From: Schistocephalus solidus
Lineage: Eukaryota; Platyhelminthes; Cestoda; Diphyllobothriidea; Diphyllobothriidae
NCBI GenBank assembly: GCA_017591395.1
Contig: WEDG01004885.1
Coordinates: 1-64,000 of the forward strand
Length of the DNA stretch: 64,000 nt
Reading direction: 5' to 3'
Positions 3,405 through 35,289 of this stretch are shown here, in pieces. Position 1 is the first letter of the stretch. Every line of letters begins with the position of its first letter. The translations under genes were made by a program, and so were the position numbers. Under the pieces are notes generated by a model. It ran no database searches and was not told where the DNA came from. It was given only the letters and a program-made list of their open reading frames with translations.

Positions 3405-3569
3405 TCTACCATTGAGCCACGGGCTCGTTGCTTTTGTCGGTTGCGATCGGGAATATGATGATAGGGTGCGGCTCACCGATCTGCTTAAAGGAACATGTAT
3501 GTTCCATTGTGCCCGGGAGCTCACTTTAGAGCCCTCGCAGGCGGTCGCATAGCGACATGTAGCATATGT
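3405..3569 (-). repeat. SINE head fragment, minus strand
   Basis: This is the reverse complement of the 5' part of the SINE at 31,684-31,985. It runs from the A-box (seen here as CTACCATTGAGCC) back through the GGAACATGCATGTTCC-type palindrome to the GTAGCATAT end. It stops within the tRNA-like part and faces the plus-strand half at 3,594 head to head. Confidence 0.8.
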
Positions 3570-3593
3570 TGACAAAGTGTCAACAAAGCAACG

Positions 3594-3757
3594 AGCCCGT
3601 GGCTCAATGGTGAGAGCGTTCGATTCAATTACCAAAGGTCGCGGGTTCGAATCCCAGGTGTTCCACACTTTGGATTGGGTATGACTGGCTGATGACGGCT
3701 AATAAGCCAGAAATGGCCATTCAGGTTTCTCTTGTCTTTGTCGGTTCCACTTTGTCA
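3594..3757 (+). repeat. tRNA-type SINE, 3' half with hammerhead-like motif
   Basis: A tRNA-like stretch (3,594-3,665) has an A-box-like TGGCTCAATGG and a B-box GGTTCGAATCC matching the pol III consensus. A conserved body follows with a hammerhead-like motif (3,683-3,727), then TGTCTTTGTCGGTTCCA and a (TA)n tail. There are one-base differences from the other copies, including an extra base in the D-arm. Poor anticodon and acceptor stems argue against a working tRNA gene. Confidence 0.85.
3683..3727 (+). ncRNA. Hammerhead-ribozyme-like motif (type I, short stem III)
   Basis: Core CTGATGA (3,689-3,695) and GAAA (3,710-3,713) enclose a GGCT/AGCC stem II with an AATA loop. GAAA is followed by AT-GGCC-AT, a minimal stem III, and then U17. 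Stem I pairs GACTGG with the bases after U17; this copy has CAGGTT, so one pair is lost and two are wobbles. The closing stem II pair is a C-A mismatch in all copies. Cleavage is not demonstrated. Confidence 0.55.
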
Positions 3758-9894: not shown

Positions 9895-11218
9895 CGTTCC
9901 GTTACGACGGTGGTCCGGCCAACGGATTAAAACTGTCCCAGTTGTGTAGGTCGATCAAAATCTACTAATAAATTAGCTCGTATAGCAGGATATCATAAAG
10001 GCGAGCGCAAGCTGAAACTCATTCCCAGTTTTAAACGTTCGAAGAGTGAAGTCAAAAAACTCACTTTCTCTGGAATTCCACACAGCCCAGACGTTGCGCA
10101 GGTAGAAATTGGCCTGCACATGAGACCAGACCTGTGAAGACAATTCATGACGGTTCTTGACTTCTTATCGTACCCCATACCTCCCCTTCTGCGTGAAGCA
10201 CCAATTATCGTGCCTGCATCCCTCATCAGGGGATCGGACTGAGGAAAAAAACCTTTACCTACACGCTCCTTCCCTGCAGATTTCTTAAAGTTGTATCCGC
10301 ATTTACGTGCATTATTTCAGTTATTTAACGGGTAAAACAAACACCGTAAGCAGTTCAAGAGTAACGTTGGAATTCACTGATGTGAACAAGCTATATTGCC
10401 CTCTGAAGGCTTCGATGGTACTGTAATAACTCTTAATAGTCAGCTTAACTGAGCCAGAAAGACCCGCATTTCGGACTCGAGCTTATCCTACCTCATTATT
10501 AGGGCTCATGGACCCACCTTCTATCGGCTGCTTACGACATTCACCGACTTGTGTTGTCTGCAGAGTGGACTACAGACGTTCTACTTGGCACTGAGGCTCC
10601 AGCATAAAGACCTAGTGGACGCCTCACGAAGCTTAAGTTAGGTTTAGTACGGTGATAGCTAGGGCCACGTAGACGCAAATTTGACAGCCAGCAGGATGCA
10701 ATCCCACGGTTCCGTGATGCGGCATTTGCCTAAGGTGCTCAATCACCGAAGAGCTCAGGCTCCAGAGCCAGGCTTGGGGTCGGCCTACGGTTGGCTGATA
10801 ATTCCAAACAAGCCTGAAACAGTTATTCCAAGCACCCAAGTCATGCAGATAAAAACGAAGTGGCGATTCCATGAGGCATTTACGAAGGAGACACAATTAC
10901 TGGAGCAAGAGCGTTATTGGCCTGACGATTCGGATTCTAACTAGAATCTATCATCAGAGATATGATAGGATAAACGGTAGTGGGTCGCACAGGTGTTGTA
11001 GTATTTGTAGGATGTAGATTTTATGACACTTCGTGCCTAAAAATATTGGTGGTTACGGTCGATCAACCTGATCTTTTTTATTTCCTGATAAAGTAATCGC
11101 TAACTTTGAGCAAATCTGTCTAAACCAAGGTTTAAAGATATAGACTAAAATTGAGTATGAAGGGTTTGGTCAAGGTCCATCAGCCACGGGGAACACTGCG
11201 GGGTCCACTGAGGAGCTT
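9895..11218. other. Unassigned spacer of the tandem unit
   Basis: No recognisable protein or RNA. Open frames of up to 87 codons at 10,633-10,944 overlap on both strands and are not preserved intact in copy 2. The right end (about 11,174-11,218) carries the CACTGAGGAGC / CCTCGGAGCTGCGTC motif, which is related to the satellite at 34,053-35,222. Confidence 0.6.
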
Positions 11219-14573: not shown

Positions 14574-14735
14574 TCTACCATTGAGCCACGGGCTCGTTGC
14601 TTTGTCGGTTGCGATCGGGAATATGATGATAGGGTGCGGCTCACCGATCTGCTTAAGGAACATGTATGTTCCATTGTGCCCTGGAGCTCACTTTAGAGCC
14701 CTCGCAGGCGGTCGCATAGCGACGTGTAGCATATG
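14574..14735 (-). repeat. SINE head fragment, minus strand, copy 2
   Basis: Same head fragment as 3,405-3,569, again facing a plus-strand SINE half. Confidence 0.8.
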
Positions 14736-14754
14736 TTGACAAAGTGTCAACAAA

Positions 14755-14928
14755 GCAACGAGCCCGTGGCTCAATGGTAGAGCGTTCGATTCAATTACCA
14801 AAGGTCGCGGGTTCGAATCCCAGGTGTTCCACACTTTGGATTGGGTATGACTGGCTGATGACGGCTAATAAGCCAGAAATGGCCATTCCGGTTTCTCTTG
14901 TCTTTGTCGGTTCCACTTTGTCAATATA
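14755..14928 (+). repeat. tRNA-type SINE, 3' half with hammerhead-like motif, copy 2
   Basis: The tRNA-like part (14,761-14,832) has the A-box TGGCTCAATGGTAGAG and B-box GGTTCGAATCC. The body, hammerhead-like motif and (TA)n tail follow. This copy has the regular D-arm that copy 1 has lost. Confidence 0.87.
14849..14893 (+). ncRNA. Hammerhead-ribozyme-like motif
   Basis: CTGATGA at 14,855-14,861 and GAAA at 14,876-14,879, with the same 45-nt layout as all other copies. Stem I is GACTGG with CCGGTT (six pairs including wobbles). Predicted cleavage would follow U at 14,887. Stem II is closed by a C-A mismatch. Confidence 0.6.
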
Positions 14929-20291: not shown

Positions 20292-21619
20292 CGTTCCGTT
20301 ACGACGGTGGTCCGGCCAACGGATTAAAACTGTCCTAGTTGTGTAGATCGATCAAAATCTACTAATAAATTAGCTCGTATAGCAGGATATCATAAAGGCG
20401 AGCGCAAGCTGAAACTCATTCCCAGTTTTAAACGTTCGAAGAGTGAAGTCAAAAAAACTCACTTTCTCTGGAATTCCACACAGCCCAGACGTTGCGCAGG
20501 TAGAAATTGGCCTGCACATGAGACCAGACCTGTGAAGACAATTCATGACGGTTCTTGACTTCTTATCGTACCCCATACCTCCCCCTTCTGCGTGAAGCAC
20601 CAATTATCGTGCCTGCATCCCTCATCAGGGATCGGACTGAGGAAAAAACCTTTACCTACACGCTCCTTCCCTGCAGATTTCTTAAAGTTGTATCCGCATT
20701 TACGTGCATTATTTCAGTTATTTAACGGGTAAACAAACACCGTAAGCAGTTCAAGAGTAACGTTGGAATTCACTGATGTGAACAAGCTATATTGCCCTCT
20801 GAAGGCTTCGATGGTACTGTAATAACTCTTCATAGTCAGCTTAACTGAGCCAGAAAGACCCGCGTTTCGGACTCGAGCTAATCCGACCTCATTATTAGGG
20901 CTCACGGACCCACCTTCTATCGGCTGCTTACGACATTCACCGAGTTGTGTTGTCTGCAGAGCGGACAGTAAACGTTCTAATTGGCGCTGGGGCACTGGGC
21001 TTCAGCTACGATGAGACGGAAATGTGTCGACTCACGAAGCTTAAGTTACCTTTAGTACGGTGACAGCTAGGGCCACGTAGAAGCAAATTTGACAGCCAGC
21101 AGGATGCAATCCTACGGTTCCGTGATGCGGCATTTGCCTAAGGTGCTCAATCACCGGAGAGCTCTGGATCCAGAGCCAGGCCTTGGGTCGGCCTACGGCT
21201 GGCTGATAATTCCAAACAAGCCTGAAACAGTTATTCCAAGCACCCAAGTCATGCAGATAAAAACGAATTGGCGAGTTCCATGAGGCATTTGCGAAGGAGA
21301 CACAATTGCTGGAACAAGAGCGTTATTGGCCTGACGATTCGGATTCTAACTCAAATCTATCATCAGATATATGATCGGATAAACGGTAGTGGGTCGCACA
21401 CTGCGTGCCTAAACAAATTGGTGGTTACGGTCGATCAACCTGATATTTTTTATTTCCTGATAAAGTAATCGCTAACTTTGAGAAAATCTGTCTAAACTAA
21501 GGTTTAAAGATACAGACTAAAAGTAAATATGAAGGGTTGGGTCGAGGTCCATCAGCCACGGGGAACACTGCGGGGCCCACTGAGGAGCTGAACCCCTCGG
21601 AGCTGCGTCATGCAGCTGC
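20292..21619. other. Unassigned spacer ending at the duplication breakpoint
   Basis: Matches 9,895-11,218 with extra substitutions around 20,960-21,020. No gene recognised. The last 80 bp carry the satellite-related CACTGAGGAGCTGAACCCCT motif. Confidence 0.6.
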
Positions 21620-30900: not shown

Positions 30901-32293
30901 CCATGACACTGGGTCGTTGAGAGAGTGAGGGAAAATGGATTGCAGTAGATGCAGCACAAGGCACCGCCCTTGCGTATACCCTGCTGTGCGACACACTGGG
31001 CAGCGTCTGAAAGGACGATCGAGCTGTCATCATCTTCGGTTTATAGTAATACAGTAAGCCCTCGAATATCACGGGGGTTACGTTCCGAGACTCCCGCGAA
31101 ATCAAAATTTCTGCGAAATATATATATATATATATAAGAATTATATTACCAACTGCGAATGTTGGAGAGGCTTTAAAGTTAACCCAAAGGCCAACGGGAC
31201 TAGTGAGTCCTGTAACCGATCGGTGAGCGCCCAACTAACGTTAAATATATATATGTTTAGTTGGAACCGACAAAGCCCAGGGAGACCGGAATGACCATTT
31301 CTGGCTTATTAGCCGTCATCAGCCAGTCATACTCGATCCCAAGTGTGGAACACCCGGGATTCGAACCCGCGACCTTTGGTAATAGAGTCGAACGCTCTAC
31401 CATTGAGCCACGGGCTCCTTGCTTTGTCGGTCGCGATCGGGAATATGATGATAGTATGCGGCTCACCGATCTGCTTAAGGAACATTTATGTTCCGTTGTG
31501 CCCTGGAACTCAGACTAGAGCCCTCACAGGCGGTCGCAAAGCGACGTGTAGCATATCGTGAGTATATAGCTCGAATCCTAGGTGTTCCACACTTGGGATT
31601 GGGTATGACTGGCTGATGACGGCTAATAAGCCAGAAATGGTCATTCCGGTCTCCCTTGTCTGTCGGTTACACACTATCAAGATATGCTACACGTCGCTAT
31701 GCTACCGCCTGTGAGGGCTCTAGTCTGAGTTCCAGGGCACGACGGAACATAAATGTTCCTTAAGCAGATCGGTGAACCGCACACTATCATCATATTCCCG
31801 ATCACAACCGACAAAACAACGGGCCCGTGGCTCAATGGTAGAGCGTTCGACTCAAATACCAAAGGTCGCGGGTTCGAATCCCAGGTGTGCCCAACTTGGG
31901 ATTGGGTATGACTGGCTGATGACGGCAAATAAGCCAGAAATGGCCATTCCGGTCTCCCGTGTCTTTGTCGGTTCCATCTTGTCAATATATATATATATAT
32001 GGAATGGAACCGACAAAGACAAGGGAGACCGGAATGGCCATTTCTGGCTTATTAGCCGTCATCAGCCAGTCATACCCAATCCCAAGTGTGGCACACCTGG
32101 GATTCGACTGGGTATGACTGGCTGATGACGGCTAATAAGCCAGAAATGGCCATTCCGGTCTCCCTTGTCTTTGTCGGTTCCATTCCATCATATGCTACAC
32201 GTCGCTATGCGACCGCCTGCGAGGGCTCTAGTCTGAGCTCCAGGGCACAACGGAACATGCATGTTCCTTAAGCAGATCGGTGAGCCCCACACT

Positions 32294-32333
<40 letters not shown>

Positions 32334-35226
32334 CGATTATTCTCTGGAGTCCATATACCAGAATACGCATAGAGAACGCTGGGCGACCCACTGAGGAGCC
32401 GAACCCCTCGTTGCTGTGTCACACAGCAGCAGAAAGATCGGCGAAACGTGTCTGGGCTTTTAGCTAGTATCTATGTCAGAAGTACGGTATAACGTCTTTG
32501 CCATATAAGATTCATACTACTTGTTTGTAGAATGGGCATTACGTTGCTCCCACCATCACAGAGACCACATCCATCTACTCATCGCCTGTTACCCCTACCA
32601 CCGCAACCACCACCGCCTTCACTACCACCACCACCACCATCAGCGATGGGGAATCTCTCTAAGCTGTACTCAATGCGACCGCACATTCACCTCACGAATC
32701 GGCCTGGTCGGTCACTTGCGAATACATCGTACAGAGACCGGTGAGCCAGTGCCTGGAGCACCATCACACAGCAGAGGTCGTCGCCTCCACTGCCCTCACT
32801 GTCCTCGCGCATTCACTCATCGCATAGGCCTATTCGGTCACATGCGCATCCATAACAGCGGAATTAACCACAATGCCGACAACACCGATACACCATGCAC
32901 ACCCTCCGCTCCTGCCATTCTTAGTGCCCCTGCCACCCCCACTACCAGCAATGACATCCTCCCAGCCTCTACCGATTTCTCCTGCCCACACTGAACCCGC
33001 AACTTCAACTCACGCATCGGCCTGGTCGGTCACCTGCGAATCCATCGCATGGAGGCTGGTGAACCAGTGCCTGGGGCTCCGACATACAGTCGACGTGCCC
33101 GCCTTCACTGCCCTAACTGCTTTCGCACATTTACACACCGCATGGGCCTATTAGGACACATGCGCCTCCATGACAACCTCCGGTAAACCACCGTAGGCTA
33201 ACCTACATCAGCGCACACTACCTACACCAATGCATCGACAACACTCTCACAATCACCATTTACCACAGTATATCACGGTTTCCTAGAAACCGTGGCTGAG
33301 AGAATCTGCCAATCTGACGCTTCCACCAGACCACGCCGTCGGCTCAGTGTATGTGCTGTGTGTGTCGAGTGGCTGACCAGTGAACTGGGAGTCAGACGGC
33401 GATGGCTGCTCCATATCCCCTGAGTTTGTGAATCCTGGTGTGTGCGTTATGGGGGCCAGGTCGTGCTGTGGCGCGCGAAGACGGGTACGCCGATCCGTCA
33501 GCCAATGCGCCCACTCCCACATCAGGCAACTGACTGGCTCGGACAGTGGTCTGATTGTGGGGGTGGGGGAAAGTGAGTCGAGAGCTCAGCGTATTTTCCT
33601 CACTATAAACAATCTGACGCGCTTGAAACTATCACGGTGCGCTAAAAGCCGTGGCTTGGAAGGTTGCCAACTGACGGGATAACTCGGACCGCGTGGTCAG
33701 CCCAATGTGTGTTTTGTGTGGAGTGGCTGACTGGCGGACTGAGAGTCAGGTTGCAATGGCTCCTTCTTAATGTGGCCTTTATGGCACTCCCACTCCGTGG
33801 GATCCGAGCCAGGTGTGGTGGCACGCCCAGGGGCGGCTTAGGCCGCGCCAGCCACCTGCGCCCTCTCCCATCTCCGGTCTTCTTGACTCTGTCTTGACAC
33901 CGGACTCAGGTGGGGGAGGAGGAGAGAGTGCGGTAGCTGCAGCGCAAGGCTACTATCACTTAAAACTAATTCACGCGCAAGTCACCGTCCCTGCACCACC
34001 TGGTGTGGAGCATACGGTGGACCTCGTCGAAATCGACGGTCGAACTGCCACGTGGTTATTCCACAGTGGTTGATTGTCTTCGACCCAAATGTTCATTGAA
34101 ATTTCGGGTCTGACCCTAAAAAGTCATGTCCGAATCACCTGACTCCATGTCCTGCACTTAATAATTTCAGAAATTATTTACCCGATTATTCTCTGGAGTC
34201 CATATACCAGAAACCGCATAGAGAACGCTGGGGGACCCACTGAGGAGCCGAACCCCTCGTTGCTGTGTCACACAGCAGCAGAAACATCGAGCGAAACACG
34301 TGTCTGGGCTTTTAGCTAGTATCTATGTCGGAAGTACGGTATAACGTCTTTGCCATATAAGATTCATACTACTTGGTACTACTTGTTTGTAGAATGGGCA
34401 TTACGTGGTTATTCCACAGTGGTTGATTGTCTTCGACCCAAATGTTCATTGAAATTTCGGATCTGACCCTAAAAGTCATGTCCGAATCACCTGACTCCAT
34501 GTCCTGCACTAAATAATTTCAGAAATTATTTATCCGATTATTCTCTGGAGTCCATATACCAGAAACCGCATAGAGAACGCTGGGGGACCCACTGAGGAGC
34601 CGAACCCCTCGTTGCTGTGTCACACAGCAGCAGAAACATCGGCGAAACACGTGTCTGGGCTTTTAGCTAGTATCTATGTCGGAAGTACGGTATAAACGTC
34701 TTTGCCATATAAGATTCATACTACTTGTAGTACTACTTGTTTGTAGAATGGGCATTACGTGGTTATTCCACAGTGGTTGATTGTCTTCGACCCAAATGTT
34801 CATTGAAATTTCGGATCTGACCTAAAAAGTCATGTCCGAATCACCTGACTCCATGTCCTGCACTAAATAATTTCAGAAATTATTTATCCGATTATTCTCT
34901 GGAGTCCATATACCAGAAACCGCATAGAGAACGCTGGGGGACCCACTGAGGAGCCGAACCCCTCGTTGCTGTGTCACACAGCAGCAGAAACATCGACGAA
35001 ACACGTGTCTGGGCTTTTAGCTAGTATCTATGTCGGAAGTACGGTAAACGTCTTTGCCATATAAGATTCATACTACTTGTTTGTAGAATGGGCATTACGT
35101 GGTTATTCCACAGTGGTTGATTGTCTTCGACCCAAATGTTCATTGAAATTTCGGATCTGACCCTAAAAAGTCATGTCCGAATCACCTGACTCCATGTCCT
35201 GTACTTGAAAATTTCAGAAATTATTA

Positions 35227-35289
<63 letters not shown>

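Follow-up and report, generated by a model that had tools for sequence, protein, structure and literature searches.

The seven copies of a 45-nt segment found in the window (the whole 64,000-nt stretch of Schistocephalus solidus DNA analyzed here) belong to a tRNA-headed, non-autonomous element, present both singly and in arrays of ~305 bp units, whose 71-nt domain may be of the type I hammerhead type; we find the scales on this reading about level, and the hammerhead-type domain is probably weak or relict. Observation establishes how the domain is laid out, how many copies exist, with what period they repeat in tandem and that the families have conserved the domain. All seven 45-mers of the preliminary description were verified in position and strand, with 0-2 mismatches each to the 45-mer; when the 64-kb window was dinucleotide-shuffled 100 times, the 45-mer had 0 matches.

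Anatomy and genomic arrangement of the element

In each unit the leader ACCGACAAA is followed by the tRNA-like head, which a linker joins to the 71-nt domain; then come the tail and a ~120 bp spacer. When the whole window was scanned with Rfam at gathering scores, a single match was returned, a tRNA (31821-31893, 38.4 bits). The A and B boxes that had been described upstream of the segment were recovered as exact strings, both of them, in four of the seven copies (3683, 14849, 31284 on the minus strand, and 31910), but the exact A box is absent from the other three (31607, 32027 on the minus strand, and 32116). Given the boxes in 4/7 window copies and the Rfam tRNA matches, the element has the internal tRNA-type A and B boxes that are a feature of tRNA-derived SINEs. 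Its tRNA-type Pol III head and its many dispersed copies bear out the earlier naming as a SINE; that name alone is nevertheless incomplete, because most of the sampled copies lie head to tail in tandem units of ~305 bp, which include a ~120 bp spacer common to the families. The features of the window are collected in Table 1.

Table 1. Positions of the element's parts and of related repeats in the window
Feature	Positions	Strand	Remarks
71-nt conserved domain (8 + 45 + 18 nt), best complete copy	31902..31972	+	Consensus identity 69/71 A-B, 70/71 A-C
Hammerhead-like 45-mer	31910..31954	+	1 mismatch; cut predicted from the layout at 31948/31949
tRNA-like head	31821..31893	+	A box 31828-31838, B box 31871-31881; Rfam tRNA 38.4 bits
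Leader ACCGACAAA	31807..31815	+	Complementary to the tail; family A leader-tail duplex -16.5 kcal/mol vs shuffles mean -7.0, sd 2.3
Tail TTTGTCGGTTC	31964..31974	+	Followed by (AT)n
Hammerhead-like 45-mer	31284..31328	-	1 mismatch
tRNA-like head, minus-strand copy	31347..31417	-	Rfam tRNA exactly at the gathering score (29.0 bits); A box 31400-31410, B box 31357-31367
Hammerhead-like 45-mer, copy without exact A or B box	31607..31651	+	Match to the 45-mer; box-string search
Hammerhead-like 45-mer	32027..32071	-	0 mismatches
Hammerhead-like 45-mer	32116..32160	+	0 mismatches; predicted cut 32154/32155
Snap-back pair, inverted arms 31999-32081 and 32106-32188	31999..32188		83 nt, 99% complementary
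Spacer module, first copy	31682..31790	+	Direct repeat of 32190-32298, 93%
Spacer module, second copy	32190..32298	+	Direct repeat of 31682-31790
Spacer module, inverted copy	31448..31556	-	94% complementary to 32190-32298
Hammerhead-like 45-mer, A and B boxes upstream	3683..3727	+	2 mismatches
Hammerhead-like 45-mer, A and B boxes upstream	14849..14893	+	1 mismatch

Near-identical flanks (3405-3748 and 14574-14914), including an inverted second head, surround the copies at 3683 and 14849, and a gapless scan over offsets, covering 1,200 bp, gave no match above 700. Two weak profile matches (10773-10843 and 21182-21251) have near-identical surroundings, carry no tRNA head and are possibly part of another repeat, and an unrelated tandem repeat with a 354 bp period (3.4 copies, 96% matches) occupies 34050-35232. 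A microRNA reading of 31913-32165 was rejected, the Rfam matches all lying below gathering scores and coinciding with the snap-back inverted repeats.

Genome-wide counts were made in an assembly of 603.7 Mb in 8,019 contigs. The pattern CTGANGA-N14-GAAA-N6-TT had 44,148 matches versus 135 for the reversed pattern, and with T at N7 it had 40,741 versus 23; a base other than T occupies N7 in 3,407 of the 44,148 (reversed-pattern controls, 135 and 23). Pattern scans of viral-contig and other genome-contig collections gave 0 matches. The COX1 of this assembly, translated with the flatworm code, shares 95% identity across the 445 residues searched with a protein named for Dibothriocephalus dendriticus, and the next matches are other diphyllobothriid tapeworms, so that the genome is that of a diphyllobothriid. 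COX1 was seen on several contigs (C589, C6369, C1080, C5997, C7083, C6182, C5619), broken on some of them, a picture to be expected of duplicated mitochondrial contigs or of nuclear copies.

Among 178 profile hits in the window and at loci L001-L038, 105 of the 119 gaps between same-strand neighbors measured 300-315 bp, in a sample whose loci were picked via the motif and in which some gaps are counted twice, as L009 is part of the window and L018 overlaps L026. One locus, L024, is a single array (305 bp period, 10.1 copies, 92% matches), and many single, dispersed copies of the element also occur. The GC content of 84 sampled units averaged 49.8% (range 41.8-53.8%), and TTTT, a possible Pol III stop, is present in 22 of them, so read-through is not assured for each unit. 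Inverted pairs of domains ~92-116 bp apart recur (31999-32188, L001, L011, L015, L021, L036), as if they were products of snap-back or template switching, and at C10:72144-72464 three motif copies spaced by 143-145 bp form a shorter derived repeat.

When the ends of homology to unit A were placed on the phase of the unit, 58/111 fell at 20-29, in the tail, and 11/111 at 140-149, while 19/106 starts fell at 220-239 and 15/106 at 250-259, where the domain has its 5′ edge; these counts are inflated by overlapping loci, and the tail ends of families B and C partly reflect spacer divergence. In family A copies, homology often ends before (AT)n. No credible clustering of element ends was found at the predicted cut site (111 ends, 106 starts): phase bin 0 held 1/106 starts, and the 9/111 ends in phase bin 290 were discarded as candidates, most of them lying at 298, the end of the trimer query used, with two (L046 and L047) seen to run on past it.

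Hammerhead-type layout and its deviations

Stem I is formed by GACTGG and CCGGTC, followed by an internal loop and a GGG/CCC extension. Next come CUGAUGA, the hairpin GGCU-AAUA-AGCC flanked by C.A, and GAA; stem III consists of A-U and U-A only, closed by GGCC, with U16.1 and U17. The parts previously named are present in the 45-mers as described, and we also confirmed both deviations reported with them, namely the C.A pair closing stem II and the ATT ahead of the predicted cut. A descriptor of the full layout, composed after the sequence had been seen, had 0 matches in 1.054e9 random bases.

Natural hammerheads are defined, in the accessible part of one study, by the core, H17 and standard pairs adjoining the core (PMC3088659), and the available text of another gives the NUH rule for the cut (PMC12192606). 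The core (C3 U4 G5 A6 N7 G8 A9, G12 A13 A14, A15.1-U16.1, H17) is intact in 7/7 window copies and in 134 of 182 distinct copies, part of which were retrieved via the core pattern, and the window 45-mers have stem I and a standard pair adjoining the core. At the closing pair of stem II (N10.1-N11.1), 98 of the 134 core-intact distinct copies carry C.A and 19 a standard pair. A non-standard pair at this place is a published ground for rejecting a hammerhead, as the accessible text has it, and the commonest form departs from that closing-pair rule (PMC3088659). Because this defining feature is lacking in the commonest form, we do not claim membership of the hammerhead class. As a putative ribozyme that form is probably slow or dead, since C.A closes its stem II and AUU would precede the cut. 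Core, closing pair and stems, which make up all the sequence criteria applied, are found together in 11 of the 182 distinct copies. U10.1-A11.1 occurs in 13/134 core-intact copies, which we do not take as proof of selection because they possibly arose through CpG decay of C14. A conserved double hammerhead was also considered, as AUGGCCAU is palindromic in family A, but it was rejected on the variability of positions 33-36 in 66 older distinct copies.

Covariance models did not recognize the segment as a hammerhead. In four scans, covering the 1.5-kb cluster, 20 further loci, five selected loci and the domain alone (86 nt), none of the Rfam hammerhead models matched at E<=10; these scans were run without a positive control having a minimal stem III. 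Across the genome RF00163 gave no match, a search that scored just 73 of 91,055 candidates and in which the control genomes were silent too.

Conservation, pairing and alternative readings of the domain

The domain is common to family A, to which the window copies belong, to family B, with stem I GGCTGG/CCAGTC, and to an older set, C. Relative to the A consensus it is 97-99% identical (B 69/71, C 70/71), compared with 73-85% for the tRNA head (B 49/67, C 57/67), 7/12 in B and 8/12 in C for the linker, and 57-62% for the spacer (B 54/87, C 47/82); the consensuses came from 8 copies of B and 29 of C that were found through the domain, which favors this contrast. In 128 distinct copies obtained independently of the core pattern, differences from the consensus average 4.0% at the 12 core positions versus 5.4% at base-matched ones (p 0.014; p 0.029 within the 45-mer), with CpG positions, family positions 2 and 19, and position -8 excluded. 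A set of 84 units cut by spacer and head only, which includes overlapping loci (L018 and L026 on the same C4109 stretch), gave a conservation of 0.962 for the core versus 0.934 elsewhere in the 45-mer (p 0.017); in the same units the lead of the core over the tRNA head (0.943) was not significant (p 0.18), and the whole 45-mer was not above the spacer (0.928, p 0.56). A further result from 86 units, in which the 45-mer appeared as the best-conserved part, was rejected as ascertainment, those units having been cut with the domain profile, and is not used here because the 84 units cut by spacer and head failed to reproduce it.

Pairing was compared with shuffles that ignore kinship among copies, in sets of 182 distinct and 98 diverged copies from which copies with gaps, insertions or <65% identity had been dropped. 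For stem I with its extension, its own register gave z 3.97 and six slid ones no more than 1.58 (182 copies), and z was 2.20 in the 98 diverged copies; stem I alone gave 2.47 in register versus at most 1.87 slid (182 copies). Stem II gave -0.86 (182) and -1.37 (98), with 0 compensating double changes in its four pairs, an absence that is weak evidence because copies decay after insertion. Of the compensatory changes looked for in the stems, we can report a modest, register-specific excess for stem I with the GGG/CCC extension, but none for stem II. The whole hammerhead pairing reached 3.67 in the 182 copies and 1.73 in the 98. Observed pairing was close to expectation at each pair in the 66 older distinct copies, condensed from 81 hits, and a looser set of 67 copies had 826 paired cells versus 809.3 expected, a value reached by 0/1000 shuffles. 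The hammerhead reading is thus upheld in part: the full layout is absent from 1.05e9 random bases and the core positions are the least variable, but a match to an Rfam hammerhead model at E<=10 is missing and stem II is without compensatory signal.

It is possible, although we lean against it, that the segment is instead a conserved, non-catalytic domain of the SINE body, for instance a long, irregular hairpin or a leader-tail helix that the partner reverse transcriptase recognizes, and that its hammerhead look is a by-product. The conserved stretch does extend 18 nt beyond the 45-mer, and the rival hairpin is the more stable fold, the hammerhead lying ~10 kcal/mol above the minimum: for typed representatives A, B, C and D the minimum-energy fold has -22.2, -22.1, -23.6 and -17.3 kcal/mol and the hammerhead fold -12.0, -12.1, -12.7 and -5.5 kcal/mol. 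Leader and tail are complementary in all of A, B and C (-16.5, -18.4 and -17.1 kcal/mol; shuffle means -7.0, -9.5 and -8.9), which looks like short terminal inverted repeats or the closing stem of an RNA. The central helix of the hairpin has z 2.57 in register and at most 1.22 slid (182 distinct copies), but the whole hairpin falls from 2.16 in these copies to -0.10 in the 98 diverged ones, and hairpin-paired positions enjoy no protection (p 0.93, 128 distinct copies). The consensus differences, at positions 2 and 42, are likewise compatible with this alternative, both being unpaired in the hairpin; they do not discriminate between the folds, however, because they keep the stem I pairs of the hammerhead too. 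The presence of a full hammerhead layout is left unexplained.

We think it improbable that the element is a satellite-like repeat amplified as DNA from a tRNA-related unit, with a domain kept only by the recency of the families and a coincidental layout. In its favor, arrays can expand through unequal crossing-over, none of the four Rfam scans gave a hammerhead covariance-model match at E<=10, and in the young-family units chosen without the domain, its non-core part (0.934) is about as conserved as the spacer (0.928). Such an origin sits poorly, however, with the many single, dispersed copies, with the absence of the layout from 1.054e9 random bases and with a domain at 97-99% identity between families whose heads stand at 73-85% and spacers at 57-62%, even though finding the families via the domain favors that last contrast. 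Chance as the sole cause of the layout can be dismissed on that absence from random bases, a result obtained with the post hoc descriptor.

Relation to known elements and possible function

In plan, with no membership of either group claimed, the hammerhead-type element works like the schistosome Sm-alpha elements and the animal retrozymes. The design it had been said to share with Sm-alpha is a fair likeness as regards plan: the SINE-like Sm-alpha and Sj-alpha elements of Schistosoma are, in the accessible text, of flatworm origin and high copy number, with a tRNA-related head and a type I hammerhead layout (PMC2770079). Their hammerhead motif was found with Rfam's, according to the same text (PMC2770079), whereas the tapeworm domain has no Rfam hammerhead match at E<=10 and its stem II closing pair is mostly C.A. 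The W elements of S. mansoni are also satellite-like tandem units of a flatworm, some with hammerheads having an extremely short stem III; three of five tested candidates cleaved, those with an intact core, as the available portion of that report states (PMC8490949). The tapeworm domain differs from them in its deviating closing pair. Metazoan non-LTR retrozymes, as far as the accessible part of their description goes, repeat head to tail with a period of a few hundred bp and have a single type I hammerhead layout per unit, and that part mentions no tRNA-like head, such as the tapeworm unit has, and gives a low GC content (<45%) (PMC7229834), below the 49.8% mean of the tapeworm units. The ~305 bp units do fall inside the retrozyme tandem period (~150-450 bp). 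A ~70-nt domain common to families that differ in heads and tails is a likeness to those SINE superfamilies that carry a highly conserved domain, judging by the text available (PMC6887750). The 71-nt domain may already be named among the MetaSINE or mollusc SINE domains.

From this anatomy alone we infer transcription, cutting and circles. Array transcripts, often multimeric, most likely carry one hammerhead-type domain per unit, and the domain would cut them after ATT into ~305-nt monomers, as happens with the satellites of schistosomes and with animal retrozymes. The monomers could then pass through ligation, circles and reverse transcription on the proposed animal retrozyme route, as set out in the accessible text (PMC7229834). 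In its strongest form, which we consider unlikely, the conserved domain of this SINE group would be a self-cleaving hammerhead that tolerates C.A, and the families would have swapped heads and tails yet retained the ribozyme, since multimeric Pol III transcripts would be cut by it into circularizable ~305-nt units.

Among the matches listed in a search of the open-access full-text literature, we found no tapeworm SINE with a hammerhead; the accessible part of a Spirometra genome paper reports 4% SINEs and describes no family among them. The role of conserved SINE domains is disputed, with competing proposals, in the part of the literature available to us (PMC6887750). If the domain cleaves, a SINE conserved domain would acquire a biochemical role, and the link between SINE, satellite and retrozyme could be put to the test in a tapeworm whose genome has 44,148 matches to the pattern. 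If it does not, this conserved and well-sampled domain, as a mimic of a hammerhead, would be a warning for motif scans.
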